From: Roseibium denhamense
GTDB taxonomy: Bacteria > Pseudomonadota > Alphaproteobacteria > Rhizobiales > Stappiaceae
DNA: 64,000 bases
Direction: 5' to 3'
NCBI RefSeq assembly: GCF_009711415.1
Contig: NZ_SMLZ01000109.1
Location: forward strand, 62,001-126,000
In this document: positions 18,639 through 40,624 of the stretch, one piece after another
Layout: the number at the start of each line of letters is the position of its first letter
Position numbering within the stretch: the stretch's first letter is position 1
Program-made: the position numbers and the translations under genes
The notes under the pieces: generated by a model
Databases searched by the model: none
Told to the model about the DNA's origin: nothing
The model's input: the letters and a program-made list of their open reading frames with translations, nothing else

Positions 18639-20048
18639 CTACCAGCCGATCCCCGCATAGCGGGAGCATGCCGGCGGTTCAGCGTGCAGGCGGACCAAAT
18701 CCACCACTGCCGCGTCTTCCTTTTTGGATCTCATCACACTCCGAATAGCCGGACCGTTTTGCGAAACGATGATTGCATCAGCGTCCGCGATGGCCTCTTC
18801 CGGGGTCTGTTTCAGGAAGTCGGGCAAGGCATCGACAACAGCTTTGAGATGCGGTGAAGCGTGCTGCATATATTCAAACTGCTGTGCGATATGGGGACCA
18901 GGCACGATGGCCGGGTCGTAAGCGGTGACCTCCACGCCTTCGGCGCGCAGGGCCGCAATCAGTTCCAGAACCGGGCTTTCCCGCAGGTCGTCCGTGCCCG
19001 GCTTGAACGCAACACCGAGGATGGCGGCTTTCTTGGCACCGGTCTTGCGGACCATTTCGATGGCCTCTTCGACTTGCTGGTCGTTGGTCGGGATCAGCGA
19101 GTCGATGAGCGGAACACTGACATTCAGTTGTTCTGCAAGATGCGAAACGGCGCGCACTTCCTTGGGCAGGCAAGAGCCGCCAAAGGCAAAGCCAGGCTTC
19201 AGGTAGTAGGGCGAGAGGTTCAGCTTCGTGTCCTGAACAAAGATGTCCATGACCTTATGGCTGTCGATCCCCATCGGCTTGCAAAGGCGACCAACTTCGT
19301 TGGCAAAGCTCACCTTCGTGGCGTGCCAGACATTGTCGACGTATTTCACCAGTTCGGCGACATCAACAGAGGTGACGATCGGGTTGTCATCAACCGGTGC
19401 ATAAATCTTTTTCAAGATGTTCGCGGTGCGCTCATCCGTTACACCGATCACCGTTTTGGGCGGTGCGTGAAAATCGGAAACAGCCGTGCCTTCCCGCAAG
19501 AACTCGGGATTGAAACACACGCCGAAATCCTCGCCGGCACGCTTGCCGGACACTTCCTCGATGATCGGGGTCATGATCTCGAGTGTCGTTCCCGGAGGAA
19601 CGGAGCAGCGCAGAACGACGACGTGGAAGGCGTCCTTGGCCGCAATCGCAGCACCGATAGACCGGGCAACCGCTTTGATTGCACGCGTGTCGCAGCCGCC
19701 ATCTTCGCTGGTCGGAGTACCAACGGAGACAAACGTCACGTCTGACTCCAAGACTGCCCGTGAGACATCGGTGGTGGCGGTCAGCAGCTCGTCATTGACA
19801 CCTGCGGTCAGTAAGTCACCGAGTTGGTCTTCAACGATTGGGCTCTGACCCCAGGAGATGGAATCGACTTTCTTCGCATCAATGTCGGCGCCGATGACCT
19901 TGTGGCCAAGCGAGCTCAGACAGGCGAGGGAAACGGCTCCAACATATCCCAGGCCGATAACACTGATGGTGTCCTTGGTTTCAATTACACGCCAATCAAA
20001 TCCATTGAGTCTTTGAACGGCTTCGAATTTTCCTACATGCATTTTCAT
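18639..20048 (-). CDS. algD: GDP-mannose 6-dehydrogenase (AlgD-like)
   Basis: 469-residue UDP-glucose/GDP-mannose dehydrogenase family enzyme that would oxidise GDP-mannose to GDP-mannuronate, the alginate precursor. Motifs: Rossmann ISVIGLGYVGAVSLACLSSLGH, TFVSVGTP, VVLRCSVPPGTT, NPEFLREGTAVSDF, NVWHATKVSFANEVG, the catalytic-cysteine phrase FAFGGSCLPKEVRA and FKPGTDDLRESP. FAFGGSCLPK, the KLNLSPYYLKPG stretch and a C-terminal ...GIGW match AlgD better than UDP-glucose dehydrogenase. About 24 extra residues precede the Rossmann fold. I chose the ATG at 20048 (GGGAG upstream); the longer frame from 20081 would begin almost at the predicted sigma54 promoter. Strictly, the substrate is inferred. 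Confidence 0.85.
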   Translation of the reverse strand: MKMHVGKFEAVQRLNGFDWRVIETKDTISVIGLGYVGAVSLACLSSLGHKVIGADIDAKKVDSISWGQSPIVEDQLGDLLTAGVNDELLTATTDVSRAVLESDVTFVSVGTPTSEDGGCDTRAIKAVARSIGAAIAAKDAFHVVVLRCSVPPGTTLEIMTPIIEEVSGKRAGEDFGVCFNPEFLREGTAVSDFHAPPKTVIGVTDERTANILKKIYAPVDDNPIVTSVDVAELVKYVDNVWHATKVSFANEVGRLCKPMGIDSHKVMDIFVQDTKLNLSPYYLKPGFAFGGSCLPKEVRAVSHLAEQLNVSVPLIDSLIPTNDQQVEEAIEMVRKTGAKKAAILGVAFKPGTDDLRESPVLELIAALRAEGVEVTAYDPAIVPGPHIAQQFEYMQHASPHLKAVVDALPDFLKQTPEEAIADADAIIVSQNGPAIRSVMRSKKEDAAVVDLVRLHAEPPACSRYAGIGW

Positions 20049-20085
20049 ATCACTGCTCCCAGTGTGATGGTCCTGGGGCAACAGT

Positions 20086-20102
20086 TACAAGCGCCGTGCC
20101 AA
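20086..20102 (-). promoter_or_regulatory. Predicted sigma54 promoter of algD
   Basis: Minus-strand TTGGCACGGCGCTTGTA matches the -24/-12 consensus TTGGCACG-N4-TTGCA except for T instead of C at -12. GG and GT are 10 bp apart as required. Predicted start of transcription is near 20075, giving a 27-nt leader before the ATG at 20048. Confidence 0.6.
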
Positions 20103-20494
20103 ACCGGATTGGCACATTAAAGGCAAATAAAAACAGTGATTTACAAAATTCTCACCACTTTCTCTTGTTTGCTGGCCTTTTGATTTTGAAAACAAAAATT
20201 CAAATTCGAACAAAAAAATTTCGGGATTTCGGAAACATGCAAGTTTGCGATCAACCCCGCGCATTTATCAAATGAAAAGCCGATGAAACGCGGCCTATAT
20301 AATAAAGCCTGACAGCCGGATTTGAGGACATCCCAAATAGCGCAACACAATCAGATCGGATTTCGCGAATTCAGAAAGAAAGCTTCCGGAAATCAGAAAT
20401 GATAACGGGCAAAATCGGCAACAAAAGCGCGACCGCAACGGATAGGCATATGTTTTAATTAAGAAAAATTGCCCACGGGACACAGCCACTGCAC
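20103..20494. other. AT-rich divergent control region algD / HAD gene
   Basis: About 390 bp, clearly AT-richer than the flanking genes and without a credible gene. It separates two predicted, divergent sigma54 promoters, so it is where activator sites would be expected. A loose inverted repeat (tgcaagtttgcg, near 20237) is the only candidate I saw. Confidence 0.45.
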
Positions 20495-20511
20495 TTGGCA
20501 AGCCAGTTGCA
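20495..20511 (+). promoter_or_regulatory. Predicted sigma54 promoter of the HAD-NUDIX pair
   Basis: TTGGCAAGCCAGTTGCA has TTGGCA and TTGCA with the GG and GC dinucleotides exactly 10 bp apart. Predicted transcription start is near 20522, with a 31-nt leader carrying the ribosome site aaaggagagg before the ATG at 20553. Confidence 0.65.
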
Positions 20512-20552
20512 CCCCGTCTCTCCAAACCAAATCTCACAAAGGAGAGGCTGTC

Positions 20553-21395
20553 ATGTTTCCAAAAGCGGTATTTGCCCCCATCGGACAAGTCACTGGCCCA
20601 ATCGGTTGGAAAAGCCCGGCGCCGATCAATGATGTTTACGTATTCGATCTCGACACGCTTGTGCCGAGCCCAAAGGGCCGGATGGATGTCGAGTTTGCCC
20701 GTTACCTAACTGCGTTTGCGAACAAGCGGCCCTGCTACATTCTCTCCAACACGAGCATCACGGACATAATGGCCCGGGTGCCTTCCTCCCTACGGGCCGC
20801 CTGTGCCGGACTTTACGCAGCCGGAGGCACAGAACTCTGGGTCCGTGACGAGCTGGTGCTCCAGCATGAGCATGACTTTTCCGACGACCTTTATGAGTTC
20901 ATGGTGAAAGTCATACAGACCAGCGCTTACCCGGAAAAACGCGCACCGATGCTTGAAAACGGGTCAGCAACCCTGCGCCTTTGCATTGCCGGATACCAGT
21001 CGACACTTCGGGAAATCGGTGAATATGCGGCCTGGGAAGGCGAACATGATGAACTGTCAACGATCATCCATGAATTCAACGCAAGGTTCCCTGACTACTG
21101 TATTCACAGAGATACGGCAACAAGCCTTCTCATTGTTCCGAAAACCTTCTCTTCGGATCTTGTCATGCGCCACCTCCTGAAGCGGCACAAAAATGCAAGG
21201 CTTGTCGGTTACATGACACCTGCAGCATCAAGCTCTTATGCCGCAGCGCTGTCTGAAGCGTTTGGGTCAAAGGACGTGCTCTCGATCATTGCGGGGCCGT
21301 CCGATGTCAGCCAGCTCCTAAGCTACGAGTTCCGCCGTCTTTTGCAGCAAGAACAAAACTCTGCCGCGCCGGCCTTGGAAAAAGTTGAGGCATGA
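20553..21395 (+). CDS. HAD-family phosphatase, phosphomannomutase-like
   Basis: 280-residue cytosolic protein. Residues 30-37 (VFDLDTLVP) are a HAD motif I with the two aspartates D32 and D34, one residue shorter than the usual DxDGT. CYILSNTS supplies motif II-like Ser/Thr, and the C-terminal AFGSKDVLSIIAG is a weak motif IV. A cap-like central part (ENGSATLRLCIAGYQST, REIGEYAAWE) recalls the layout of eukaryotic-type phosphomannomutase and HAD-IIB sugar phosphatases. Divergent from algD and downstream of its own sigma54 promoter, it may help supply mannose-1-phosphate. That role is inference; a generic sugar phosphatase is equally possible. Confidence 0.6.
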   Translation: MFPKAVFAPIGQVTGPIGWKSPAPINDVYVFDLDTLVPSPKGRMDVEFARYLTAFANKRPCYILSNTSITDIMARVPSSLRAACAGLYAAGGTELWVRDELVLQHEHDFSDDLYEFMVKVIQTSAYPEKRAPMLENGSATLRLCIAGYQSTLREIGEYAAWEGEHDELSTIIHEFNARFPDYCIHRDTATSLLIVPKTFSSDLVMRHLLKRHKNARLVGYMTPAASSSYAAALSEAFGSKDVLSIIAGPSDVSQLLSYEFRRLLQQEQNSAAPALEKVEA

Positions 21396-21396
21396 A

Positions 21397-21978
21397 ATGG
21401 AGCTAGCAAAACAACAAGAGCCAAACACCAACTGGAGCCTGCTAAGCAGCGAAAAGGTGTTTGAGGCCGGAGATCGTCTGAAAGTCCTTCGACAAACAGT
21501 CGAGTTACCTGATCTCACACGTGTCGAGGACTACTATCAGATTGACCTACCGACCTACGCGACCATCTACGCGGTAACCGACCAGGACGAAGTGCTGCTG
21601 CTGGAGCAATACAAACATGGTGTTGGCCAGGTCTGCCTGACACTTCCGGGCGGACAGATCGACCCGGGTGAAAATCCGGAATTCGCGGCCCGCAGGGAGC
21701 TGCTTGAAGAAACCGGTTATGGCGGTGGACGTTGGCTTGCCGGACCGTCACTGGTTCTTCACGGCAATCAACGCGTTGCACTTGGCCACATATTCGTCGC
21801 CCGCCATGTCATCAAACTCAACGACCCCTCACCCGGTGACCTTGAAGATATGCAGGTCAAGTTGCAGTCACGGAAAGACGTTCAACGCAGTCTCATAGAT
21901 GGCAAGCTGCCGATCACGTCGCATGCAGCAGCTGTAGGCATAGCGGAAACCATGATCCGGGCTGGCAGTTCATCCTGA
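21397..21978 (+). CDS. NUDIX hydrolase
   Basis: 193 residues with a complete NUDIX box: G-QIDP-GE, NPEFAAR, RELLEETG (Gx5Ex7REUxEExGU). The surrounding LLLEQYKHGVGQVCLTLPGG resembles ADP-ribose/GDP-mannose pyrophosphatase-type NUDIX enzymes. The ATG is 1 bp beyond the HAD stop with GAGG upstream, so the two are co-transcribed. Given algD across the divergent promoter, hydrolysis of a GDP-sugar such as GDP-mannose is an attractive but unproven substrate. Confidence 0.85.
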   Translation: MELAKQQEPNTNWSLLSSEKVFEAGDRLKVLRQTVELPDLTRVEDYYQIDLPTYATIYAVTDQDEVLLLEQYKHGVGQVCLTLPGGQIDPGENPEFAARRELLEETGYGGGRWLAGPSLVLHGNQRVALGHIFVARHVIKLNDPSPGDLEDMQVKLQSRKDVQRSLIDGKLPITSHAAAVGIAETMIRAGSSS

Positions 21979-22005: not shown

Positions 22006-23502
22006 TCAGGAATTCACGGCGACGCCATCGTCATCGGGAGCACCGGTCAGGTCATCTCCACCGGTCTCGTTTTCCTGCGCCGCCCAGATCTCTTTCTTGC
22101 GATAAAGGGTGGAGGGGCTGACCTGAAGCACACGTGCGGTTTTCGGAAGACTGCCGCCACAAGCGTCAATCGTTGCCTCGATTATGCTGCGCTCAAGCGT
22201 TTCGAAGGGTTGACCGAGAGACAGCGTAATTTGCGGCCAGACATCACCCGTGGCGCTGACAATTGATGCGGGCGGACTAGCCGCCTGCGGCACACTGAGC
22301 GGGACGGCTGGCGCTGGTCGGGGAGCTGAGGGTTGACGTCCCTGAAGCGTTGCCAGCATGTCCACCTCGACAATCGGGCCTTCGTTCAGCACCACCAAGT
22401 TGCGGATTGTGTTTTGCATTTCACGGACATTGCCCGGCCAGGGATGGCGCATCAAAACCTCTTCTGCCTCAACAGAAAAGCCTTCGAATGTTTTCCCTTC
22501 TTCGCCAGCAAACTTGATGAGAAAATGCCGGGCCAGCTCAAGGACGTCCGCCCCGCGGGCTCTGAGTGGCGGCAGCCCGATGGGTAGAACGTGAAGACGG
22601 TAATAGAGGTCTTCGCGAAACCGGCCGGCTTCCACTTCTTCTTGCGGGTCCCGGTTGGTGGCGCAGACGATGCGCACATCAACCTTGGTGAGCTTGTCAC
22701 TGCCGACCTTCTGAACCGTTCCGCTTTGCAGGAAGCGCAGAAGTTTGGCTTGCAGACTCAATTCCAGCTCGCAGATCTCGTCAAGGAAGAGAGTGCCGCC
22801 ATCAGCACGCGCCGCAGCTCCATCGCGATCACCCGTTGCTCCGGTAAAGGCGCCTTTCACATGGCCGAAAATTTCAGATTCAATAAGGTCTTTCGGAATG
22901 GCCGCACAATTGAGCGGCACAAAAGGTTTTTTAGCGCGGGGGCTGGATTTGTGGATGGCTTCTGCGCAGACCTCCTTGCCGGTACCGCTTTCACCTGTGA
23001 TGAAGACAGACGCATTCGACCGGGCGACGCTTTCGATCATTTTATAGACAGCGGTCATAGGCAGGGACGAACCGACAAAGCCGTGATTGGCCTTTCCGCC
23101 GGAAGGTTTTCTAACCTCTGCAACGACTTCCGTAAGGGTTTCACGCTCCAGCGCGTTCCGGGTTGTCGTAACAAGCCGCTCTTCAGCCACCGGCTTGACG
23201 ATGAAGTCGTAGGCGCCCGCCTGCATGGCGTCGACTGCGGTCTTGATCGATCCTGAACTGGTCACGACAACAACGGTGACCGGCAGCTGTTCTTCCCGCA
23301 CAGTTGCGAGGACTTCAAGGCCGTTCATATCCGGCAATTGCAGGTCCAATAGGACAACGCTGATCCCGCCCTTGCGGATCTTGGCGAGCGCTGCCTGCCC
23401 GGTCTCCACATGGGTGGTTTCAATTCCCGCACGGGACAGATGATGCTCATAAACAGTTGCAAGCGACAACGTGTCTTCGACAATCAGAACTTTCAAAGCC
23501 AT
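22006..23502 (-). CDS. Sigma54-dependent response regulator (NtrC/LuxO type)
   Basis: 498 residues: receiver domain (1-120, phosphoacceptor in VVLLDLQLPD, KP lysine in YDFIVKPV), AAA+ activator domain (about 140-380: Walker A GESGTGKEVC, the sigma54 contact loop GAFTGAT, Walker B GGTLFLDEI, the arginine-finger region ATNRDPQEEVEAGRFREDLYYRL) and a Fis-type helix-turn-helix near the C-terminus (SLPKTARVLQVSPSTLYRKK). It needs RpoN-type promoters. It lies 23 bp downstream of the hybrid kinase and in the same direction as the alg genes. Probable target promoters carrying -24/-12 elements are inside this window. Confidence 0.93.
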   Translation of the reverse strand: MALKVLIVEDTLSLATVYEHHLSRAGIETTHVETGQAALAKIRKGGISVVLLDLQLPDMNGLEVLATVREEQLPVTVVVVTSSGSIKTAVDAMQAGAYDFIVKPVAEERLVTTTRNALERETLTEVVAEVRKPSGGKANHGFVGSSLPMTAVYKMIESVARSNASVFITGESGTGKEVCAEAIHKSSPRAKKPFVPLNCAAIPKDLIESEIFGHVKGAFTGATGDRDGAAARADGGTLFLDEICELELSLQAKLLRFLQSGTVQKVGSDKLTKVDVRIVCATNRDPQEEVEAGRFREDLYYRLHVLPIGLPPLRARGADVLELARHFLIKFAGEEGKTFEGFSVEAEEVLMRHPWPGNVREMQNTIRNLVVLNEGPIVEVDMLATLQGRQPSAPRPAPAVPLSVPQAASPPASIVSATGDVWPQITLSLGQPFETLERSIIEATIDACGGSLPKTARVLQVSPSTLYRKKEIWAAQENETGGDDLTGAPDDDGVAVNS

Positions 23503-23525: not shown

Positions 23526-26500
23526 TTATGGATCGGGTGCCAAGCCTATTTCCATCTCGTCCGCCAAAGCTTTCACATCTGCTAACGTATCGTCACTTAT
23601 TGAAATCAGTTCGTCCACCCGTGTCAGGGCAGATGCGGTTTTTTCCTCACGGACCAAAGTGTTGATTTCTGCCGCAATCGTCGTCAGGCGTGTTGCGCCA
23701 AATGTCCCGGCAACGCTTTTCAAGGCATGTGTTGCGCGTTCCAGCTGAGTAAAGTCATGCGTTTGCGCCGCCAGACGGGCCGCTTCGCGTTTTTCCCGGG
23801 TATCTGCTTTGAACTGGTTGAGAAGTTTTTCCTGCAACGCCGGCGGCATGTCCGCCAGAAGCACTCTGGCCTCCGACAGTTCCTGATGCGTGGCAGGTGT
23901 TATTGCATGATCAAACGCGCTGGCATGCCTGCGGACATTGCGGGCAATACAGGCGAGAAGGTCCTGCTTCTCAACCGGCTTGGACAGGAAATCCGCCATT
24001 CCAGCCGCAAGAAACCGTTCCCTATCTCCACGCAAGGCATAGGCTGTTAGGGCGATGACCGGCGTATTTGTATTCCGGTGTCCGTTCTGGATATGCCTGG
24101 TCGCCTCGAGCCCATCCATTTCCGGCATAGAGATGTCCATCAAGATACAGTCATAATCGCGGTTTTGGGCAGCGATGACCGCTTCCTTGCCATTGTTGGC
24201 GATATCAATGTCGCATCCGGCCCGCTGAAGGGCATGAGACACTACAATCTGGTTGGTTGCATTGTCCTCCGCCACGAGCACTGTCAATCCATCCGGAATA
24301 TGTTCCTCCAGCATGGCTACTTCCGGCTCCGGCAATTCTGCCTGCTCATCGGCCAGTTCAAGCGGAACACAGAAATGGAACGTGCTGCCGGCCCCAGGCA
24401 AGCTCTCCACCAGGATTTCACCGCCCATCAGGTCCGAGATACGCTTGCTGATGGCCAGACCGAGCCCAGTGCCGCCCTGTTTTTTAGTGTAGCTGCTGTC
24501 GATCGTGACAAAGTCACCGAACAAGCTTTCGTGCCTGTCCTTGGGTATTCCGATACCGGTATCTTGGACAGAAAAGCGGAAGACCGGACGAACCGGGTCA
24601 TCCTTGTCGACGGAGACCGTTATACGAATAGACCCCAATTCCGTGAACTTGACCGCATTGGACACAAGATTGAGCAGCACTTGCCGCAACCGCCCTGCGT
24701 CACTTGTCACAACTTGAGGAACATCAGCCGGATAAATCAACTCCATGCCGATCCCTTTTTCCTGAGCAATCGGCATGAACAGATCGACAATGCTTCTGAC
24801 CACCGTCTTGAGGCGGAAGGGCGCAGTTTCAAGCTCGGTACGTCCGGCCTCCAGTTTTGAGAAATCGAGAATGTCATTGATCAACTCAAGAAGTGACCGG
24901 CCGGAGTCGCGCGCAGTTTTGACATAGGACTTCTGGTCGGGATCAAGATCCGTATCACGCAGCAGGCTGAGGATCCCGAGCACACCATTCATAGGTGTAC
25001 GGATCTCATGGCTCATCATCGCCAGGAATTTGGCCTTCGCTTCATTGGCAGCCTCAGCTTTTTCCTTGGCGTCCCGCAGAGCCTCTTCAGCAGCCTTTCG
25101 CTCGGTAATATCGCGGACATAGCCGAGAAACAGCGGCCCGCGTTCACCCTTGGTATGGCGGATCGCGAGTTCCACGATAATCTGATGGCCCTCCTTGTGC
25201 AGGCCTTCAATTTCGATCCGTTTTCCAAGAACGGGCCCTTCGCCCGTCTTCAGAAACTTTTCCAGTCCGGCATCATGCATGGCCCGGTATTTTTCGGGGA
25301 TGATGTAGTCCGACATCTTTTCCCCAACGATTTCGGCAGCTTTCCAGCCGAACACCTCTTCCGCGGACGGGCTGTAATCCAGAACAGTGCCGTTCCCATC
25401 CATAACGATGACGCCGTCAAAGGATGCGGAGACCACATTGCGCAGCAGGCTTTGGCTACGAACCAGTTCCTGCTCCCGCTTTTTCAATTCGGTAATATCG
25501 ACTCGAAAGCCGACCAAGCCGCCTTCACTTGTGCGGGACTCGATCACCCTGAGCCAGCGGCCGTCATCCAGGTGCTGTTCCATAGGCGCGCCCGGATGCC
25601 GGTGGTTCTGCATCCTGAGCTCCACCCAGTCCTCCAAGGCTTCTCCAGAGACTTGGTATTGCCCCCGCTGTGCCCCGTCCCTGATAATCTCCTCAAATGT
25701 CTTGCCGACCTCGATGAGATCCGCGCTGCGGCGGTAAAATTCCTTGTATTTGCTGTTGCACATGACCAGGCGGTCATCCGCGTCATAAAGCACAAACCCA
25801 TCGGGCAAGGATTCGATCGCATCGACGAGCCGCGTTTCTGCCTGCAGCAGCTTGGCGGCGGCGGCTTTTTGCTCGGTCAGGTCCCGCAAAATGGCCGTAT
25901 AGGTCACCCGGCCGTCCACCACGGTTTTGGACAAGGACAGCTCCACCGGATAGCGGCTGCCATCGAAGCGCCGCCCGGTTACTTCAAATCTTGCCTTGTC
26001 GTCATCGAGCTCCGGCGATGGACCGGCGCAACACTCGAATGGCAATACATTCGCATCGTCTTCAGGCAGGATGTCGCAAATCCGTTTGCCGGACAAATCA
26101 TCGAACGAGGCCACCCCAAACATTCGCAGGGCCGACGGATTGGCGCTCAAAAGATCCCCGCCGGGAGACAGGGTCACCACACCATCCAGCATGGTTTCAA
26201 GGACCGCATTGACCTGCGCCTCACCGGTTTCGGCGCGCGTGATCGCGGCTTGCAAAGCCGCGTTCTTCTCCCGTTCTGCGTCTGCAAGGTCATGAACCCG
26301 TGTGAGTGCTCTCTGGCGCTGAGAAGACAGCACAAGTGTCAAGGCGACAGCGGCAAGGAAGGCAACCCCGAGAAGCACGATCAAACTGTCTATCGAAGTG
26401 ACACCGCCGCCATAGAGCGCGCTTGCCGGCAGTATGACTTCCTGAATGCCCCGGATGTCCCCGACTTCCCAATCGGTCTTGGGAGACTCCGGGTGGGAGT

Positions 26501-27026
26501 TGTGACATGCAACGCAGCTGTCCTCCATCCGAACGGCCCGCGCACTGCGGAAGACGTTTCCGTCGGCTCTCGCTTCAAGCCGCTGATAGGGTTGGTCGGG
26601 AGCTTCGCTAAGAGCCGCCAGCGCTTCACGTTCGAAGCTGTCAAGTTCACGGTCCTGACGCCATGGCCACGGATGATTGGACAACATCCTGATCCGGCTT
26701 GATGCCCCAAGCGCAGCCAGTTCCTCCTCAAGCCCAAGGGTCATGGACACAGGTGCCGGGATCGTCAGGTCTTTGCCATGATAGTCATGGCTGACCGACA
26801 TGTCGTCTGACAGATAGACCTTGTCGATCACTTCGCGCGAGTAGAACGACCGGGTCGCGGTCAACAGCTCGTTTTGCGCTTGTGCAGCGGCCGAGAGGTC
26901 GGCGGTTCTGGCCTTCTGGCCGAAATCGACCGCGATGACGTAGGCAGAGATGGCGGACGCGCAAATGAAAACCAGGACGAGCCAGAACGTTGCATCCTGA
27001 ATCATGCTTACGATCCGTTGCCGCAT
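23526..27026 (-). CDS. Hybrid histidine kinase with haem-motif (DUF3365) sensor
   Basis: 1166 residues. Membrane helix 1 (about 13-33); a periplasmic DUF3365-type domain with a c-type haem motif CVACH at 171-175 (SCVACHNSHPES); helix 2 (SIDSLIVLLGVAFLAAVALTLV); three PAS domains; HisKA ([16 protein letters not shown]); HATPase (NAVKFTELG, DTGIGIP, GGTGLGLAISK); receiver (CILMDISMPEMDG); and a C-terminal HPt (THALKSVAGTFGA). The architecture suggests a redox or gas-responsive phosphorelay feeding the sigma54 regulator next door. The ATG at 27026 gives the cleanest N-terminus; a longer frame reaches 27098. Confidence 0.92.
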   Translation of the reverse strand: MRQRIVSMIQDATFWLVLVFICASAISAYVIAVDFGQKARTADLSAAAQAQNELLTATRSFYSREVIDKVYLSDDMSVSHDYHGKDLTIPAPVSMTLGLEEELAALGASSRIRMLSNHPWPWRQDRELDSFEREALAALSEAPDQPYQRLEARADGNVFRSARAVRMEDSCVACHNSHPESPKTDWEVGDIRGIQEVILPASALYGGGVTSIDSLIVLLGVAFLAAVALTLVLSSQRQRALTRVHDLADAEREKNAALQAAITRAETGEAQVNAVLETMLDGVVTLSPGGDLLSANPSALRMFGVASFDDLSGKRICDILPEDDANVLPFECCAGPSPELDDDKARFEVTGRRFDGSRYPVELSLSKTVVDGRVTYTAILRDLTEQKAAAAKLLQAETRLVDAIESLPDGFVLYDADDRLVMCNSKYKEFYRRSADLIEVGKTFEEIIRDGAQRGQYQVSGEALEDWVELRMQNHRHPGAPMEQHLDDGRWLRVIESRTSEGGLVGFRVDITELKKREQELVRSQSLLRNVVSASFDGVIVMDGNGTVLDYSPSAEEVFGWKAAEIVGEKMSDYIIPEKYRAMHDAGLEKFLKTGEGPVLGKRIEIEGLHKEGHQIIVELAIRHTKGERGPLFLGYVRDITERKAAEEALRDAKEKAEAANEAKAKFLAMMSHEIRTPMNGVLGILSLLRDTDLDPDQKSYVKTARDSGRSLLELINDILDFSKLEAGRTELETAPFRLKTVVRSIVDLFMPIAQEKGIGMELIYPADVPQVVTSDAGRLRQVLLNLVSNAVKFTELGSIRITVSVDKDDPVRPVFRFSVQDTGIGIPKDRHESLFGDFVTIDSSYTKKQGGTGLGLAISKRISDLMGGEILVESLPGAGSTFHFCVPLELADEQAELPEPEVAMLEEHIPDGLTVLVAEDNATNQIVVSHALQRAGCDIDIANNGKEAVIAAQNRDYDCILMDISMPEMDGLEATRHIQNGHRNTNTPVIALTAYALRGDRERFLAAGMADFLSKPVEKQDLLACIARNVRRHASAFDHAITPATHQELSEARVLLADMPPALQEKLLNQFKADTREKREAARLAAQTHDFTQLERATHALKSVAGTFGATRLTTIAAEINTLVREEKTASALTRVDELISISDDTLADVKALADEMEIGLAPDP

Positions 27027-27135
27027 TGTTCTGTCTCCGGTCTGTGTGTCCTGCGAATTCGAAAGACTCTTGCAGTCTTCACGTTTTAGTCTGGTCATTG
27101 GATGTAAAATTTCGCTTTAAGGAAACAACGGCAAC

Positions 27136-29064
27136 TCAAGGTTTTGACGCGATTGGCAGCGCGGCAGGCCTGAACTCGAAGAACGGATTGCCGTTAAAGA
27201 AAGCCTGCCAGCTGTCGTATTTGTAGGTTTTGTGAAGTGCGCAGACGTCTGTGCATCCGTGAATGCTGAGTATCAGCTGGAAATCCGCGTCCGGATCAAA
27301 GAGGTTTGCATAGGCAAAGACCGTGTCGGCCGACTGCACGCCGGGGACTGGGCCGGAAAACCGTTTCTTGAAGGCCTCAGACGGCACGGATGACCACCCG
27401 CCTGCGGGGAACCAGCGGGGACCGGCCGGTCCTGCACCATCCAGATCACGCGGAGTTGCGGCCCCAAAAGTGAGCAGGAAGTCTTCCCGGCTTTTGAGCG
27501 CGGCAATATGGTCGCCGGTCATCAGATCAGGGAATTCGGCGGCGCTCAGCAGCGATATCCCTGCGTGCCCAGTGTCTTCGAAACGCTCGCCGGCACGTTT
27601 TGACGGGGAGCCATCACGGTCTTCAAAAGCCGCCTTTGGCCAATAGCGGAACAGGGCACCATTCTCATCGGCGCTCCATTCGTCATAAAAGCCTTTCACG
27701 ACGGATCTACCGCGCGCGCTCAAGGCAGGATCGGACAAGTCTTTGAGCAACGCGGCCATGGAAACTTGCCAGTTCCAGGGAGCAATGCTTCCCTTGAACC
27801 TGAAGTCGATATCCTTGTTGATCCGGTAGAGCCCGACGGTTGGATCGAAATCCGGCTCGTATTCATTGGCGAGACAGGCCTGTGTTCCGGCAATTCTGTT
27901 AGCAAGCTCAACCGGGCAGCCTCCACCGAGGGCCTTGCAAGCCTTTGCAAGGCTGTTGGCAATCATCGCCTGATTGATCATCAGGGTCATCCGATCGTTG
28001 TTGTTCGTCGCGTAGATCGTTGAACTCCAACCGCAAGAAGGGTTCTGATTGCTCGTACGGCCGTTGACGCCATCTTGAGCTGCAAGGGTGAGACGCATCG
28101 ACTTGCGGGCAAGAGCAGCAAACACGGAATCTCCGGTCTTCTCAAAAAGGCTAGCGAGGGCGCGAAGCCGATAGCTTTGGTTCCAGCTCTGCAGTCCTTC
28201 CGCATCCGACGAGCAGGCGCGCACCTCACCGGTCTGCGCGGCGAGGAGGCCGTTGACCGCATAGTAGAAATTGATGCCGGAAGGAGACCCGGATACTGTC
28301 AGAACGGCTTCGCCGTCAGGACGGTCTGCGCGCGGAAGCGTCATGAAGTCCGCGGTCTCGCTTGTCATGACAGGCGATTCAATGGACCCTGTCGTAAGGT
28401 CTATCCTGTAGATCCCGGCGGTATCCGTGTCTGCACATTCCATGCGGGCCCAGAGCACATCGCCTCGAACCAACACGCGTTCGGGCACGCAGCCCGCAAA
28501 ATCGAGAAGAACCTCGGGCTCTTTGGAAACAAGGCCGCCTGCCCCGCGTTTATGGCGGATAAGCCGCGCCGGTTCGCCTGGCCGGGTGACCAACAGAAGA
28601 GCTTGGGTCTCGGTAAAGCGCAACAGTTTCGCGAGTGTGCCGCGCTTGAATGTGAGCCGGACCACGCTTTCCTGAAGCAGTTCGGTCTGCTTGTCGCCGG
28701 TTTTCCAGGTGCGCATGTGGACCAATGATCCATCGCGGGCGAGACGAATGGTGCCAAGGCGGGCTCCCTCCTGGGCAGGGCCACCGAGATCCCGGATCAT
28801 GCCATCCACCGAGACGGTCGGTTTGTCATCGCCCGAATTCTTCGCGACAACAAGAAGGTTGGACCCGGCCTTCGATACGGTTTCAAGGCACTGGCCGGTC
28901 ACGCCCTTGCGGGTGACATCTCCGCTCTTCAGGTCGACTTCGAGGCCTTGGGCGGGCAGAACCAGAAGGGCGTTTTGAACCGCACCTTCCGGTGCGGCCC
29001 AAGTTGTCGGTGTTCCGGCACAAAGGGCCGTTGAGAAGGCAAGTGTCAGAAAGAGCGAGCGCAT
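27136..29064 (-). CDS. Periplasmic protein of unknown function in the alg operon
   Basis: 642 residues with a Sec signal peptide (LFLTLAFSTALCAGTPTTWA). The N-terminal half (about 25-290) is beta-rich, with repeated short strands and many DG/GD turns. The C-terminal half (about 290-600) is helical, with tryptophan and glycine-rich loops (SCGWSSTIYATNNNDRMTL, FKGSIAPWNWQVSMAALL, RFEDTGHAGISLLSA), reminiscent of (alpha/alpha) toroid lyases and epimerases. I do not recognise the family, and neither the PL5 motif of AlgL nor the beta-helix of AlgG is seen. It follows algI by 13 bp, so a role in trimming, epimerising or escorting the polymer is plausible but inferred. Confidence 0.7.
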   Translation of the reverse strand: MRSLFLTLAFSTALCAGTPTTWAAPEGAVQNALLVLPAQGLEVDLKSGDVTRKGVTGQCLETVSKAGSNLLVVAKNSGDDKPTVSVDGMIRDLGGPAQEGARLGTIRLARDGSLVHMRTWKTGDKQTELLQESVVRLTFKRGTLAKLLRFTETQALLLVTRPGEPARLIRHKRGAGGLVSKEPEVLLDFAGCVPERVLVRGDVLWARMECADTDTAGIYRIDLTTGSIESPVMTSETADFMTLPRADRPDGEAVLTVSGSPSGINFYYAVNGLLAAQTGEVRACSSDAEGLQSWNQSYRLRALASLFEKTGDSVFAALARKSMRLTLAAQDGVNGRTSNQNPSCGWSSTIYATNNNDRMTLMINQAMIANSLAKACKALGGGCPVELANRIAGTQACLANEYEPDFDPTVGLYRINKDIDFRFKGSIAPWNWQVSMAALLKDLSDPALSARGRSVVKGFYDEWSADENGALFRYWPKAAFEDRDGSPSKRAGERFEDTGHAGISLLSAAEFPDLMTGDHIAALKSREDFLLTFGAATPRDLDGAGPAGPRWFPAGGWSSVPSEAFKKRFSGPVPGVQSADTVFAYANLFDPDADFQLILSIHGCTDVCALHKTYKYDSWQAFFNGNPFFEFRPAALPIASKP

Positions 29065-33289: not shown

Positions 33290-33762
33290 AGCTGTGGCCC
33301 TCGTTTGATCCAATTGGCTGGATCCTTTCAAGAGCTGGGCCAACTCAGCTTTCGAATTATTATCCCAATTAATTCAAATAGTTGTGATTTTTTTGCATTT
33401 TTGGAAACTGGTAGGACTTAGCAATTGCGTAAGAGCAGTTTTGCAAATTGAAAAGGTCTCTGAGTGTGTTGGAGTCCTGGGTGTCGAACACCCTGTAAGT
33501 GTCACGCCGGACGGAGCGGAGCGAAGTTCCGGGGCCCACTCGCAGTTCTGGATGCCAAAGCCGGAGTTCCCTACCAGTCAATCGGCATCCGCCAGTTATT
33601 GCGCGTCAGGCTCTGCAAATGAGTTGCCGCGGGTCTAACCTCGTTCGCCCGGGGTAACCGCAGTGCCGGGCACAGTTTCTCCAACCTTATTTCTTTCCTT
33701 GGAGAACGGAACATTTCCCGTCCCCCCGAAAACAGTTGCAGTGTCCCGTCACAGTCAGCCAA
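33290..33762. other. Gap inside the alg gene run
   Basis: 473 bp between the alg8 stop and the SGNH gene with no credible gene. It contains an 8-bp inverted repeat ttctccaa/ttggagaa (33677-33684 and 33699-33706), possibly limiting read-through, and a -24/-12 match at 33613-33626. The gap suggests that the run is two transcription units. Confidence 0.5.
33611..33628 (-). promoter_or_regulatory. Weak sigma54 promoter candidate before the algJ-like gene
   Basis: Minus strand CGGCAACTCATTTGCA: GG at 33626-33625 and GC at 33614-33613 are 10 bp apart, with GGCA and TTGCA matching consensus. The upstream T is missing and the leader to the ATG would be over 300 nt, so this is weaker than the algD and alg44 candidates. 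Confidence 0.35.
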
Positions 33763-35355
33763 TCAGGCCGGCAAGCCGAGAATGTGGGCGATCATGAGAC
33801 CACTCGGCGGTTCGATGAGACCCGCCATCAGGCAGACACCGACAAACAGCATCGTCACATAAAGAAGGGTGAGATAACTCGCCATGAGGTTCTGCAGGGT
33901 GGCGAGCAGCCCGTCGCCTTCACCTGCGCGCTGGTCACCGCGGTTGGACCAGCGTTGTTTTGACAGGCGGAAGATGCAGTAGACCTTCACCGACGCATTG
34001 ATCAACTGGTTGAAGTAGAGAATGAACGGATAGCTGAGGTCCACTTTGCGGGCGTACCGATAGAGAAACAGCGACAGCAGCATCCGGGTTATGCAGATGA
34101 AGACCACATATCCGAAGATGTAGTAGGGGTCATAGAGAAACGTCGTGCAGACCGCGAGCACCGGGCTTACCAGCATGGTCCACATGGAAACGCGCTGGTC
34201 CAAAAGGCACCACCAGATAAAGAACGGCATCCGGCCCGGCCCCAATGCAAGGGCGCGAGAGCCATTGCGCAGCATGTTGCCAGACCAGCGGCGGAAGTTT
34301 TGAACCATCCGGTCCATGCCGGAGCCTTCAATGACTTCAACCGTGTAGCCCATGGCGTCGGGCACATAGAGCATGCGGCAGCCGGATTGGAGCATGTAGT
34401 ACCAGGTGCTTTTGTCGTCGCCCGACAGGAAACGGAACTTCCCCCACAGCCAATGCTCGAGATGATCTGCCTCGAGAAGACGAATGAACTTGAGCTTTGT
34501 CAGGTGGTTCGCCCGGAAAACGGACATCCGTCCCGTCAGGGTCAGAACCCGGCCGGAGAGCGAGTGGGATTGCATGGCTAGCCGGCGCTGCGCAAAGCGC
34601 ATGGTCAGCCAGTTGGCAATCCAGCGCGGGCCGATGCAAAGCACTTCTTCATCCGTCGTGCAGGCTTGCAGGTCCGGGTAAAGCTTGAAGAGCGGCAGGC
34701 ATGCACCAACAGCATTTTTGGCCAGAATAAAGTCACCATCCATGAAAATGATGAGGTCGTCGTCTTCTACGTCACCCCGGCTCATCGCACGCAAAACAAG
34801 GCCAATCGCCAAACGCTTGCCGGGCTGGTTCTGCCGGACGACATGAAGGGTCACGTCAAGATCGGACCACTCCCGGGCCAGAAGATTGGAGATGAGGTCT
34901 TCGTCATACCGGTCGCCAGAACCGAGCCAGATCGTGCCCGGCACACCGGCGTCCCGGATTTCGCGGCAGATCGACCGGATCACCTTTTCCGTGATGTCCC
35001 GGTGTTCCTTGTAGGTCGTCATCATGAAGTGGAGGTGGCGGGGACGCCAGCCGTCCTCCCACACCTTCTTCCCGGCGTCCCGCATGGACGGGTAGACAAA
35101 CTTGCCATAGATCCAGGCCCGCACGGCGTGAGTGAACCACCAGCCATAGCGCCAGACGCCGAGGATCCCGATCACAAAGGTGATTTGTTTCGTCGCCGGG
35201 CTGAAGAAGACGTTCTCAAAGGTGGTCACCCCGACAAAGCAGAGGCCGAAGTAAAGGCTGATCTGGAACAACGCAAATGGGGTCCATTTGGCCAACCCCC
35301 TCGGTTGATGCGTGATTTCATCGACGTTGAAATCCTGCTGCAGGGACCGGCTCAT
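33763..35355 (-). CDS. alg8: Mannuronan synthase catalytic subunit (Alg8-like)
   Basis: 530-residue inner-membrane GT2 polymerase that would join mannuronate from GDP-mannuronate. Matches to Alg8 are extensive: IGILGVWRYGWWFTHA, FMDGDFIL (DxD), MRFAQRRLAMQS, SGRVLTLTGRMSVFRA, KFRFLSGDDKSTWY, FRRWSGNMLRNGSRAL (RRW of the QxxRW region), LLDQRVSMWT and ILYFNQLINASVKVY. Hydrophobic helices lie at the N-terminus (about 25-70) and in the C-terminal third. The ATG overlaps the alg44 stop by 4 bp (ATGA), so catalytic and c-di-GMP-binding subunits are co-translated. Cellulose-synthase-type GT2 enzymes are the alternative, but the motif wording is that of Alg8. Confidence 0.9.
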   Translation of the reverse strand: MSRSLQQDFNVDEITHQPRGLAKWTPFALFQISLYFGLCFVGVTTFENVFFSPATKQITFVIGILGVWRYGWWFTHAVRAWIYGKFVYPSMRDAGKKVWEDGWRPRHLHFMMTTYKEHRDITEKVIRSICREIRDAGVPGTIWLGSGDRYDEDLISNLLAREWSDLDVTLHVVRQNQPGKRLAIGLVLRAMSRGDVEDDDLIIFMDGDFILAKNAVGACLPLFKLYPDLQACTTDEEVLCIGPRWIANWLTMRFAQRRLAMQSHSLSGRVLTLTGRMSVFRANHLTKLKFIRLLEADHLEHWLWGKFRFLSGDDKSTWYYMLQSGCRMLYVPDAMGYTVEVIEGSGMDRMVQNFRRWSGNMLRNGSRALALGPGRMPFFIWWCLLDQRVSMWTMLVSPVLAVCTTFLYDPYYIFGYVVFICITRMLLSLFLYRYARKVDLSYPFILYFNQLINASVKVYCIFRLSKQRWSNRGDQRAGEGDGLLATLQNLMASYLTLLYVTMLFVGVCLMAGLIEPPSGLMIAHILGLPA

Positions 35356-36950
35356 GTCGCGTCTCCGAGGTAACCTGAGATCAGCCGCAAGACCTTGTTT
35401 GCGCGGTACCGCTCAAAGTAGACGGTGACCGGTGTTCCGGATTGAGGAAGGGTGCCCCCCTTTGAGATCAGATCGACCTTTGCAGAACGCGCATCCGGTG
35501 CGCGGAACCGGTGCATTTGTGTGGTCTCATCAATGAACCCGTCTGTGCGGCTGATCATGTCTACTGTTGCTTCGATCCAGCGGTCTTCGGCCGGCACATA
35601 AATTCGGGCCGGGCTGCCTTTGCGGACCTGAGTGATTTCTTCCTGGGTCAGGAACGCTGTGATAACCCGGTGGTCGCTTTCCTCCAGAACCACAAGCGGG
35701 GCGCCGGCTTTAAGCGTTTGACCATCGGCTGCAATCACATCCACAACAGCGGCATTGGAGCCAAGCGTCACCGGCATCATGTCCGGTTGAACGCGCAGCT
35801 CTTCCAACAGCTTGGTGCGGAAGTCGACTTCCTGCTGCCAGCGCGCCACTTCGGCAATGCGTTCGGACTTCAATCCGCTGAACTTGTCGCCGTTCAAGAT
35901 GCCAAAGTTTCCGCCTTCAGAGCCCAATTTTTCCAACTCGGCAACGTGAATGATGTGTTTTTCAAGCGCGCTCTTGGCCGTGGCCAACTCAAGCTGTGCC
36001 GTGGCGAGCACATCCCGTTTCAAGTAGCCTTGTGCGAACAGATCCTTGTAGCGGTTCAACCGGTCCTGGGCCGTTTCAACGGCAAGCTCTAGTGTGACGG
36101 TTTCTGCGCGGGCCTGGCGCAGATCATTGGCAGCGACAAGGCTGTAGCCTGTTTCGCGGTCGGCTTCGACTTGCAGATAAAGCTTGTGCTCGGAGAGCTC
36201 CACCTGCGCCTGCATAAGCGCGGTTTCGGCTTTGCGGATTTCCGAAATCAGCGCGTCGTTCTCGATAAAGGCGATCGGAACTCCAGAAGCTGCAACATCA
36301 CCGGTGCGCAGGCTCAGACCGGTGAGACGTCCGGTCGCCGGTGCCGTGACCTCATAACGTTCGGCACTGACGACTGCGGTCGAAATTTCCAGGCGGAAGA
36401 GCGTTGCGAAAATGTAAATCCCGACATACCCGAAGACGGCAATGCCAAGGGCGAAATAGAAGAGCGACATGACGATCTGCTTGATCGGCCAGCGGCGGAC
36501 GGGGATTCCCTGTGCCGGGTTTGGGTCCGGTTTGGTAGGCACCGGTGTGACCGGTGTATCGATGCGAACAATCGTGTCGGTGACGTCTGTCATCTTGCCG
36601 CGGACGAGATCCTCGACAAAGTGTTGCATCAACGCCGTTTCCCGCTCTCCAAGGTCTACGAAGCGGAAAGCGACCTCTTTGGTGTCTTCACTCGAACGGA
36701 CGACTTCAGCGCTGGCCTTCAAGGTGATGTTGAAGCCCTGGAACGGCAGGGTGCACAAGAGAGGGTGGTCCGATCCGACCTCAGGAAGCGGCGCAGAAAG
36801 GCCGGAGATCCGGCAACCGCCGAGCCCCCAATCCGCAGCGTCAAAAGTCTGATCACCAAGGGTGACGCGCATCGGCGCTGTTACCCTGTAGTGCAGCCTT
36901 TGGCTGGGCCTTTCATGAATGATGTCCACTTTTGCAACCTTTGATGTCAT
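35352..36950 (-). CDS. alg44: c-di-GMP-binding polymerase/export subunit (Alg44-like)
   Basis: 532 residues: an N-terminal PilZ domain (1-120) with the R18-LHY-R22 pair and D40-W-G-L-G-G, then one membrane helix (IVMSLFYFALGIAVFGYVGIYIF) and a periplasmic HlyD-like part with two lipoyl-type half-motifs (YEVTAPATGRLTGLSLRTGDVAASG; AADGQTLKAGAPLVVL) around a long coiled coil. This is the Alg44 architecture. The PilZ D/NxSxxG serine is glycine here. ATG 36950 matches the length of Alg44 proteins but lacks a ribosome site; a GTG at 36929 has AAAGG upstream and fits the predicted transcription start better. Frames continue to 37025. Confidence 0.88.
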   Translation of the reverse strand: MTSKVAKVDIIHERPSQRLHYRVTAPMRVTLGDQTFDAADWGLGGCRISGLSAPLPEVGSDHPLLCTLPFQGFNITLKASAEVVRSSEDTKEVAFRFVDLGERETALMQHFVEDLVRGKMTDVTDTIVRIDTPVTPVPTKPDPNPAQGIPVRRWPIKQIVMSLFYFALGIAVFGYVGIYIFATLFRLEISTAVVSAERYEVTAPATGRLTGLSLRTGDVAASGVPIAFIENDALISEIRKAETALMQAQVELSEHKLYLQVEADRETGYSLVAANDLRQARAETVTLELAVETAQDRLNRYKDLFAQGYLKRDVLATAQLELATAKSALEKHIIHVAELEKLGSEGGNFGILNGDKFSGLKSERIAEVARWQQEVDFRTKLLEELRVQPDMMPVTLGSNAAVVDVIAADGQTLKAGAPLVVLEESDHRVITAFLTQEEITQVRKGSPARIYVPAEDRWIEATVDMISRTDGFIDETTQMHRFRAPDARSAKVDLISKGGTLPQSGTPVTVYFERYRANKVLRLISGYLGDAT

Positions 36951-36965
36951 CGGCACCAATGTGTT

Positions 36966-36982
36966 CGCAAGGACGATGCCAA
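36966..36982 (-). promoter_or_regulatory. Predicted sigma54 promoter of alg44-alg8
   Basis: Minus strand TTGGCATCGTCCTTGCG: TTGGCA and TTGC with GG (36980-36979) and GC (36968-36967) exactly 10 bp apart. Predicted transcription start is near 36955, which leaves 5 nt before the ATG at 36950 or 26 nt before the alternative GTG at 36929. Confidence 0.6.
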
Positions 36983-37087
36983 CCGGGATTGTCCGGGCCG
37001 AGACCTGCAAATGAGATCCGCACAAACGATAGGCAATTGAAAAATATAGAAAATTTCAAAGGCTAGACTCAGCATCCTGGTCACTCT

Positions 37088-37100
37088 TTGCAAATTGCAA
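37088..37100. promoter_or_regulatory. Predicted activator site upstream of alg44
   Basis: TTGCAAATTGCAA fits TTGCA-WWW-TGCAA, the published LuxO-type site, with six-base arms if the flanking T and A are counted. It is nested in a second inverted repeat, tcctgg (37075-37080) and ccagga (37104-37109). It lies about 140 bp upstream of the predicted transcription start, the usual position for an NtrC-type activator. Confidence 0.45.
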
Positions 37101-37172
37101 ACCCCAGGAGGACTGTGTGGACTGGGGCCAGTTTCTCATTATGCAAAGGGCAGAGCTGAAGAACGGGGAAGG

Positions 37173-39132: not shown

Positions 39133-39180
39133 GTGATTACTCCTTCGCTTACGCGCATGCGCGCGATCAGGCAGGAGAAG

Positions 39181-39198
39181 TGCAAAGAGAAGACCAAA
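39181..39198 (-). promoter_or_regulatory. Sigma54 promoter candidate of the RTX gene
   Basis: Minus strand TTTGGTCTTCTCTTTGCA: GG (39195-39194) and GC (39183-39182) are 10 bp apart and TTTGCA is perfect, but the -24 box reads TTGGTC rather than TTGGCA. Predicted start near 39170, 38 nt before the ATG. Confidence 0.4.
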
Positions 39199-39417
39199 TG
39201 GCCGGAGAAGCCGGCACTTTGGCGACTAGAACACTGATTTTTCTGTAGTTTCAGGGACGAATACCCGGACCAGGCGTTACCAATTCAGGAGGCGTACTTC
39301 GGCAAATGCAAAACCAAAATTGCGTTTTCGAAACGGCGGCAGCCATCGGGCGTCCGTGTAGCTGGCATGACGGAGCGGCTCTGAAAAACCTGACAGGCAC
39401 AAAGCATGCCGCCGTAA

Positions 39418-40605
39418 CTAAGAGGACGTCAAGCCGCCCTGCTCTTGGGCCCACACAAAAACCTCGTCCGCCGGCATTGGTTTGGCAATGAAATAGCCCT
39501 GGACAACATCAACACCGAGTTTCGCGACAAGGTCCCATTCGGTCTCGGTTTCAACGCCTTCCGCAACCGTCGACAGACCCAGTCTTTTTGCAAGGGAAAC
39601 GCTCGATTCCAGCATTGCCCGCGCCTCTTCGTCCTGCGGAGCCCCGGCAACAAACGCCCGGTCGATCTTCAGTTCTGTGAAAGGGATCCGTTTCAACTGC
39701 TGCATGGACGAGGCCCCGGTGCCGTAATCGTCGATGGCAAGCCCAAGGCCTTTCATGCGCAAGCGTGTCAGGATCTCGAGTGGCGCGGCAATGTCATCCA
39801 TGATCCGGCTCTCGGTCACTTCAATTGTGACGTACCCCGGATCAGCCTGCTCCTTCGCAATTGCCTGGCTTACCAGATCGAACACTTCGTAGCGGGTCAG
39901 GGAGTCAACCGAGAAGTTCACCGCAACCGAGATCTCCAGCCCTTTGCGCCACCAATCCGCCAGAACCGCAATGGATTTTTCAAAGACTTGCCGGGTCATT
40001 TCATCGATAAGACCGTTATCTTCAATAACCGGGACAAAGGCGATGGGAGGGATCAGGCGGCCATCCGCTCCCCGCCAGCGGGCCAGAGCCTCCACGCCGA
40101 CAATCCTGCGATCGGCGACAGAAACCTTGGGCTGGAAAAAAACATCGATGCAGCCGCTTTTTAGGCCATCTTGGATGTCCTTCAGGCTCAGGACATCAAT
40201 CGGACCACGTTTTGCGGCCTCCTGCTGCGCCGCATAAGTGTCCAGCAACGCCTTGAGCGGATCGGGCTTGATCGGTTTCTGTAGGGATCCAAGCACGTTC
40301 AAACGGTGCGCCTCAGCCAGTTGCGCGGCGGTCTGCAGGATCCGCTTTTCCTCGCCGCTGACCAAAACAATCCCGCAGGCGGCATTACGTTCTGCGAGAT
40401 GGCGGAGGAATTCCAGCCCGTCCATTCCCGGCATGTTGAGGTCGCAGATGATAATGTCCGGCCCGTGCGCTTCCACGGCCTCAAGTCCCCTGGCCCCGTC
40501 TTCGGCCGCCAAGACCGTGTCGTAGCCAATCTTCGTGAGGATCTTTGTTGTCAACTTGGTGATGAACGGATCATCGTCGACGATCAATATCTTCGCCATG
40601 CCCAT
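39418..40605 (-). CDS. Response regulator with EAL c-di-GMP phosphodiesterase domain
   Basis: 395 residues: an N-terminal receiver (KILIVDDDPF, acceptor in IIICDLNMPGMDG, lysine in LQKPIKP) and a C-terminal EAL domain (about 150-395). Active-site motifs are intact: VEALARW, the VNFSVDSL asparagine, EVTES, IDDYGTG, ELKIDR, AEGVET and QGYF, so it probably hydrolyses c-di-GMP. It starts 19 bp after the hybrid kinase gene, its likely phosphodonor. ATG at 40605 chosen; a second ATG lies two codons on. Confidence 0.92.
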   Translation of the reverse strand: MGMAKILIVDDDPFITKLTTKILTKIGYDTVLAAEDGARGLEAVEAHGPDIIICDLNMPGMDGLEFLRHLAERNAACGIVLVSGEEKRILQTAAQLAEAHRLNVLGSLQKPIKPDPLKALLDTYAAQQEAAKRGPIDVLSLKDIQDGLKSGCIDVFFQPKVSVADRRIVGVEALARWRGADGRLIPPIAFVPVIEDNGLIDEMTRQVFEKSIAVLADWWRKGLEISVAVNFSVDSLTRYEVFDLVSQAIAKEQADPGYVTIEVTESRIMDDIAAPLEILTRLRMKGLGLAIDDYGTGASSMQQLKRIPFTELKIDRAFVAGAPQDEEARAMLESSVSLAKRLGLSTVAEGVETETEWDLVAKLGVDVVQGYFIAKPMPADEVFVWAQEQGGLTSS

Positions 40606-40624
40606 CTTGGCGGTGCTCTCCTGT

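Follow-up and report, generated by a model that had tools for sequence, protein, structure and literature searches.

Predicted divergent sigma54 promoters for algD and a PMM-like HAD-NUDIX operon within a probable alginate-like exopolysaccharide regulon of Roseibium denhamense

The alg cluster and the algD-HAD intergenic region

The window analysed here, that is, the whole stretch of DNA under study, comprises 64,000 nt of Roseibium denhamense (assembly GCF_009711415.1, contig NZ_SMLZ01000109.1, positions 62,001-126,000 of the forward strand). It carries a cluster of alg-type genes in which algD and a HAD-NUDIX gene pair diverge from a common intergenic region, with the genes of a LuxO-like response regulator and of a hybrid histidine kinase beyond the NUDIX gene (Table 1). 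The best PDB match of the algD product is GDP-mannose 6-dehydrogenase (1mfz, 398.7 bits vs 253.5 for the next match, a lead of 145 bits), and on this similarity we identify algD as a GDP-mannose dehydrogenase gene, as expected of a bacterial alginate locus. Domains are as expected for an Alg8-type GT2 synthase, a PilZ/HlyD Alg44, an MBOAT AlgI and a Sel1 AlgK, the last with 33.7 bits against the NCBIfam AlgK equivalog, far under its 700-bit cut-off. AlgE, AlgG, AlgL and AlgX had no Pfam or NCBIfam match among the cluster proteins scanned, and PDB sequence searches with algJ, alg44, alg8 and a 642-residue protein (27136-29064) returned nothing useful. By their domains and folds, the dehydrogenase, synthase, PilZ/HlyD, acetyl-transfer, Sel1-repeat and PMM-fold HAD proteins appear to share one purpose, and we would call their polymer "alginate-like" at most.

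Two members of the cluster were examined as structural models. The HAD protein (pLDDT 86.8) compares with 3f9r at VIA Z 25.4 and rmsd 2.3 over 234 aligned positions, with a profile match to PMM1 at E 1.7e-6; as modelled, it is of the phosphomannomutase (PMM) fold. Among 23 aligned sequences the first Asp of its DxD motif is invariant, and the second position is D, E, N, S or A, so that the two aspartates, which we take to be catalytic, are not both kept across the family; the window copy keeps DxD. On this pattern, the protein may be regulatory, or else an enzyme that has changed. The 642-residue protein, which has no Pfam, PDB sequence or NCBIfam match, gives a model (pLDDT 84.7) whose N-terminal part is rich in beta structure and whose C-terminal helical toroid is like that of GH105/unsaturated glucuronyl hydrolases (VIA Z 17.0 and rmsd 3.7 over 287 aligned positions vs 4xuv), and it is possibly a uronan-acting enzyme. 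We also observed, in the same cluster, a receiver-EAL protein of c-di-GMP phosphodiesterase type (39418-40680) and the PilZ-domain Alg44 (35352-36929), which suggest a second control by c-di-GMP.

Table 1. Coordinates of genes and of predicted or putative control elements in the window
Feature	Position	Strand	Remarks
algD-like nucleotide sugar dehydrogenase	18639..20048	-	PF03721/PF00984/PF03720
Predicted sigma54 -24/-12 promoter of algD	20086..20102	-	TTGGCACGGCGCTTGTA; predicted +1 at 20075
IHF-like site, algD promoter	20131..20143	-	about -68; 2 mismatches in window genome
Putative proximal UAS of algD	20176..20193		centre about -109; PWM 19.6, second best in window; position conserved
Second, weaker enhancer-like site, algD side	20219..20236		centre about -152; PWM 11.8
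Central element	20295..20306	+	CTATATAATAAA; between two enhancer blocks; conserved by alignment
Putative distal UAS of HAD promoter	20361..20378		centre about -152; PWM 17.5; alignment block conserved
Putative proximal UAS of HAD promoter	20383..20400		centre about -130; PWM 13.1; 22 bp from distal UAS
Weak IHF-like site, HAD promoter	20443..20455	+	about -79; 3 mismatches in window genome
Predicted sigma54 -24/-12 promoter of HAD-NUDIX pair	20495..20511	+	TTGGCAAGCCAGTTGCA; predicted +1 at 20522
HAD protein	20553..21395	+	eukaryotic-type alpha-phosphomannomutase fold, as modelled
NUDIX hydrolase	21397..21978	+	PF00293, E 2.4e-13
LuxO-like sigma54 enhancer-binding response regulator	22006..23502	-	PF00072 receiver, PF00158 AAA+, PF02954 Fis-type HTH
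Hybrid histidine kinase	23526..27098	-	Tll0287-like sensor, PAS domains, receiver, Hpt; CxxCH motif
Predicted sigma54-like promoter of algJ	33327..33343	-	predicted +1 at 33316; ATG 33289
Putative second UAS of algJ	33391..33408		PWM 12.7
Putative UAS of algJ	33439..33456		centre about -131; PWM 20.2, best in window
Predicted sigma54-like promoter of alg44-alg8	36966..36982	-	predicted +1 at 36955
Putative UAS of alg44	37086..37103		holds perfect LuxO consensus TTGCAWWWTGCAA at 37088-37100
Putative second UAS of alg44	37131..37148
Predicted weaker sigma54-like promoter of RTX gene	39181..39197	-	predicted +1 at 39170; ATG 39132
Putative UAS of RTX gene	39297..39314		centre about -135; PWM 12.3

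Match quality, position and conservation of the divergent pair

The initial annotation had placed two divergent -24/-12 sites between algD and the HAD gene, with strict 10-bp spacing, from which transcription would begin 27 nt (algD) and 31 nt (HAD) ahead of the chosen start codons. Both sites are present exactly where it put them, the distance from GG to GT (algD side) or GC (HAD side) is 10 bp, and the predicted +1 positions again fall 27 nt and 31 nt ahead of the ATG codons of algD (20048) and HAD (20553). It had also considered such matches rare by chance, which is not the case for the match alone and becomes so once position and conservation are included. At up to one mismatch to the consensus TGGCACGNNNNTTGCW the window holds exactly two sites, both being the described pair, vs a mean of 1.2 in dinucleotide shuffles of the window (at least two sites in 32 of 100 shuffles), and the 4.8-Mb genome holds 43 vs 48 for a reversed-pattern control. 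Apart from the pair, no site in the 4.8-Mb genome matches the degenerate pattern YTGGCAMGNNNNTTGYA exactly, a pattern fitted to both sites after the fact. The weights of our -24/-12 scoring were set by ourselves from the general consensus. The sequence match on its own is at chance level; the sites are judged to be beyond chance because of their conservation and fixed position, not because of match quality.

Among 87 genomes of the family, the HAD protein turned up in 23, which all belong to one of the seven genera; the nearest named relatives are two Labrenzia records and one Alphaproteobacteria bacterium record. The algD-HAD-NUDIX arrangement occurs in 22 of 30 loci (22 genomes, our own included; L033 and L038, on one truncated contig with the algD end missing, are excluded), and the LuxO-like activator gene follows NUDIX in 21 of these 22 within the stretch examined. 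In all 22 syntenic loci the best rightward site lies 26-34 nt before the HAD start codon (consensus.TGGC.a.....TTGCa) and the best leftward site 26-30 nt before that of algD (consensus tTGGCACGg..cTTGTt). On each strand the top site falls within 6 nt of the common start-codon distance in 22/22 loci, vs a mean of 0.7 for shuffled upstreams, with maxima of 3 and 4 of 22. The core columns are invariant at both sites, in an alignment where spacer columns are conserved at 41% and 53% and upstream columns at 48% and 55%. Based on this, both promoter sites are very probably real.

The -12 element of algD has GT and not GC in all 22 loci, reading TTGT(T/A), and that of algJ reads TTGTT, TTGAA or TTGAT; those of HAD, alg44 and RTX, unlike these two, are mostly TTGC or CTGC. 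This conserved difference may set promoter strength. HAD paralogues at seven loci elsewhere in the genus (L052, L054, L057, L058, L059, L061 and L063) adjoin a PLP-enzyme-like gene, recognised by eye, and have -24/-12-like sites near their starts, mostly without the enhancer type described below.

Further elements lie between the two cores. The scan for IHF-like sites, with the consensus WATCAANNNNTTR from the excerpted text of PMC5963220, covered 19 of the 22 loci, near-identical ones being dropped; the algD site at -68 has at most two mismatches in 17 of these 19, with z -4.4 among all offsets. On the HAD side the IHF-like site is better in relatives than in the window, at about -78 or -67 by clade, and the enhancer block begins at about -162 or -151 by clade, so that both are displaced together by one helical turn (about 11 bp). 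The enhancer matrix was learned from 74 promoter upstreams (representatives from 16 of 22 and from 14 of 19-20 loci; L048 and L050 were omitted from the first matrix for a one-base insertion) and has the consensus.tTTtC.ATTTTGCAAA. as learned. Its 11 best matches in the 64-kb window are all inside four alg-cluster intergenics, compared with two matches above 9 in each of five shuffles; as the matrix was partly trained on alg intergenics, the independent part of this result is the conserved positions.

A shared promoter module and its candidate activator

The divergent pair is probably not isolated: from the sequence comparisons, it makes up two of at least five promoters in one regulon covering the alg cluster. 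Nineteen relatives were extended past the activator gene, and the order alg44-alg8-algJ-algK-algI-hybrid kinase is kept in 19/19, with RTX present in 18/19 and the 642-residue protein detected in 18/19. The top site lies 25-29 nt before the algJ ATG in all 20 rows, the window being one of them, in one place before alg44 in 20/20, and at most 6 nt from the median distance before RTX in 18/19. For alg44 the start codon is probably the GTG at 36929 rather than the ATG at 36950, because the GTG/TTG start column is conserved. Over the five promoters, sites are in place in 22/22, 22/22, 20/20, 20/20 and 18/19 rows vs shuffled means of about 0.7, and core columns are conserved at 100% (HAD, algD, alg44), 99% (algJ) and 96% (RTX), with spacer columns down to 41-72%. 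The RTX and algJ sites deviate in the window genome (TTGGTC and TTGAA, respectively). Each promoter of the divergent pair is built of the three classic parts: first the enhancers, some 110 to 160 nt upstream of the start, then an IHF-like bend site near -68 or -78, and last the -24/-12 element. IHF-like blocks and enhancer repeats were also found at algJ, alg44 and RTX, where the module recurs. As controls we used the upstreams of alg8, algK, algI, the 642-residue protein and the kinase from the same cluster: the enhancer score reached 13 in 0 of 94 of these rows vs 52 of 56 for RTX, alg44 and algJ, and the control genes have no shared top-site position (at most 3-8 of 18-19 rows agree).

The neighbouring gene at 22006-23502 encodes a protein with GAFTGA in its translation, whose best PDB match is LuxO (5ep0, 458.7 bits), and which scores 588.4 bits against the NCBIfam LuxO equivalog, under the 800-bit cut-off. 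The LuxO enhancer consensus TTGCAW3TGCAA (excerpts of PMC11443567 and PMC10162802) is matched perfectly at alg44 and with one mismatch at 33441-33453; the other enhancers have diverged from it. Its exact form occurs at four places in the genome, and only the one at alg44 has strong enhancer and promoter matches around it. The genome also has rpoN (PF04552, 230.3 bits), the genes of both IHF alpha and IHF beta, and nine full sigma54-activator domains plus three weak partial matches. With nine full domains present, we infer binding by the local protein only from its linkage and from the similarity of the sites to those of LuxO, and we regard it as the probable activator of the alg promoters. The kinase keeps its CxxCH heme motif in 19/19 relatives.

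The reach of this activator was also considered. At 28 other sigma54-like one-mismatch sites, those of the 49 listed genome-wide for which loci were available, there was no comparable enhancer pair (the best single scores were 10.6 and 10.0), so we see no sign of the activator acting elsewhere among them, and on the same result a wider regulon beyond the alg cluster was rejected.

A search of the class for Alg8 relatives (E<=1e-60) covered 385 genomes and had matches in 22, our own included. To look past the genus we opened five genomes of other families, of six with Alg8 at 55-72% identity. In four of the five a LuxO-like activator (48-61% identical) lies within about 12 kb of alg8. In 40 kb of one of them (G304) the genus matrix scores above 14 only three times, directly before alg44, algD and algJ, and in each case a -24/-12 site follows. 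Enhancer support is thinner in the other three: G234 shows this arrangement once, at alg44, and for the -24/-12 sites of G311 and G444 the accompanying enhancer matches are weaker or unassigned. The fifth genome (G108), without an activator nearby, has no enhancers by the genus matrix.

Competing readings, a proposed mechanism and known systems

We hold it to be highly likely that algD and the PMM-like HAD-NUDIX operon are expressed from divergent sigma54 promoters, as the initial annotation had read them, within one alginate-like exopolysaccharide regulon that also takes in algJ, alg44-alg8 and RTX. The observed basis is the sites with their spacing and conservation, the shared enhancer motif, rpoN, both IHF genes and the activator gene in the cluster; the conserved, phased cores, the enhancers, the IHF-like sites, rpoN and the neighbouring activator gene all favor the original reading. 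Counting against it are the chance-level match, the three mismatches of the HAD-side IHF-like site in this genome, the deviating RTX and algJ sites, the GT at the -12 of algD, the nine candidate activator domains, the thinner enhancer support in three of the other genomes and the conserved central element. The idea that GC-rich TGGC...TTGC words just happen to precede two genes would fit the background-level match counts in both window and genome, but the invariant cores at fixed start distances in 22/22 loci with diverged spacers, together with phased enhancer and IHF-like elements, leave it a negligible probability, and chance as sole explanation was rejected on conservation despite that match quality. 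Hardly more probable is a role of the TTGGCA/TGCCAA words as operators, be it for a repressor or for some other regulator. The window does have the inverted repeats GTGCCAA-N6-TTGGCAC (20096-20115) and TGGC-AA-GCCA (20496-20505), yet in most relatives the second arms are not conserved, unlike the -24/-12 cores; such palindromes, not being conserved across relatives, were rejected as operators.

That the promoters are real sigma54 promoters served by an enhancer-binding protein other than the adjacent LuxO-like one is unlikely, with somewhat more in its favor: the genome offers the other full-length activator domains mentioned above. Against it stand the linkage of the LuxO-like gene to NUDIX in nearly all syntenic loci and to the cluster in most of the other families opened, the perfect LuxO consensus in one enhancer, and the absence of such enhancers from the one genome that has no linked activator. 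A further promoter, of sigma70 type or other, might lie at the central CTATWWATAAAG element and provide a second start for HAD or a small RNA; it would add to sigma54 control rather than replace it, and we consider it possible but doubtful. The element keeps its orientation, in most loci sits roughly 205-260 nt ahead of HAD, and resembles what we take to be an alphaproteobacterial -10 hexamer, but no conserved -35 was found in its flanks and Rfam had no match in the window or in the algD-HAD intergenic, on which ground a small RNA in the intergenic was rejected. The element could be a further promoter or a factor site.

A possible mechanism for the sigma54-controlled regulon would start with a signal sensed by the hybrid kinase, whose Tll0287-like domain with CxxCH could point to redox or gas sensing through heme. 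A phosphorelay would then run from this kinase to the LuxO-like response regulator, which in its phosphorylated form would occupy the enhancers. IHF would bend the DNA between enhancer and -24, and at each of the five promoters the AAA+ ring would open the closed complex of sigma54 and polymerase, so that the alginate-like exopolysaccharide machinery would be switched on jointly.

Alginate is a textbook AlgU-controlled polysaccharide, and the support drawn in the initial annotation from RpoN control of algD in Pseudomonas turns out to be weak: an RpoN requirement does exist in P. aeruginosa strain PAO579, but according to the excerpted text of PMC3684759 it acts upstream of AlgU, via algW and pilA, and AlgU (sigma22) is the primary sigma factor of algD. 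The two systems are alike in that the promoter drives the GDP-mannose dehydrogenase gene of alginate synthesis, and unlike in this primary role of AlgU (same excerpt). By analogy, a closer working parallel than Pseudomonas algD would be the control of the syp polysaccharide locus of Vibrio fischeri by SypG and sigma54 which, in the part of PMC10162802 at hand, combines a LuxO-like response regulator, a hybrid-kinase phosphorelay with Hpt and sigma54 promoters with a polysaccharide locus. Here too a LuxO-like activator and a hybrid kinase are encoded with polysaccharide genes, which they would control. In contrast to syp, the present locus is an alphaproteobacterial one of alginate-synthase type with alg-type domains, known from sequence alone, with a Tll0287-like CxxCH kinase, conserved IHF-like sites and an exact LuxO consensus at alg44. 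With LuxO-qrr of Vibrio it shares LuxO as the best match of its activator in both PDB and NCBIfam and a single perfect consensus site; it differs in the score below the equivalog cut-off and in having protein operons rather than small RNAs as predicted targets (excerpts of PMC11443567 and PMC10162802). For the divergent layout there is a precedent in orp1/orp2 of Desulfovibrio vulgaris, where two IHF sites separate two sigma54 promoters; the genes and the organism are unrelated to those studied here (excerpt of PMC3897727). A 2025 survey of sigma54 regulons mentions alginate once in its excerpted text, counting it among the known sigma54-linked processes, and this regulon is not described in that text (PMC12316311). 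Judged by titles and abstract openings, the papers listed by our literature search included none on an alphaproteobacterial alginate locus under sigma54 control.

In conclusion, the possibility that loci of alginate type in alphaproteobacteria have a LuxO/SypG-like sigma54 activator of their own, fed by a heme-binding hybrid kinase through which a redox or gas signal would switch at least five promoters together, appears to us evenly balanced; the wiring would be older than the genus, because in several families the activator is still found near the cluster although gene order differs. The regulon is directly testable, as the enhancers of its five promoters are defined and there is a single candidate each for activator and sensor. 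The GT at the -12 of algD and the one-turn shift of the HAD module represent natural experiments in how sigma54 promoters are tuned and how DNA loops. If marine alphaproteobacteria do control an alginate-type locus through sigma54 and a LuxO-like activator, they would have a regulatory solution separate from AlgU and parallel to that of SypG-syp in Vibrio.
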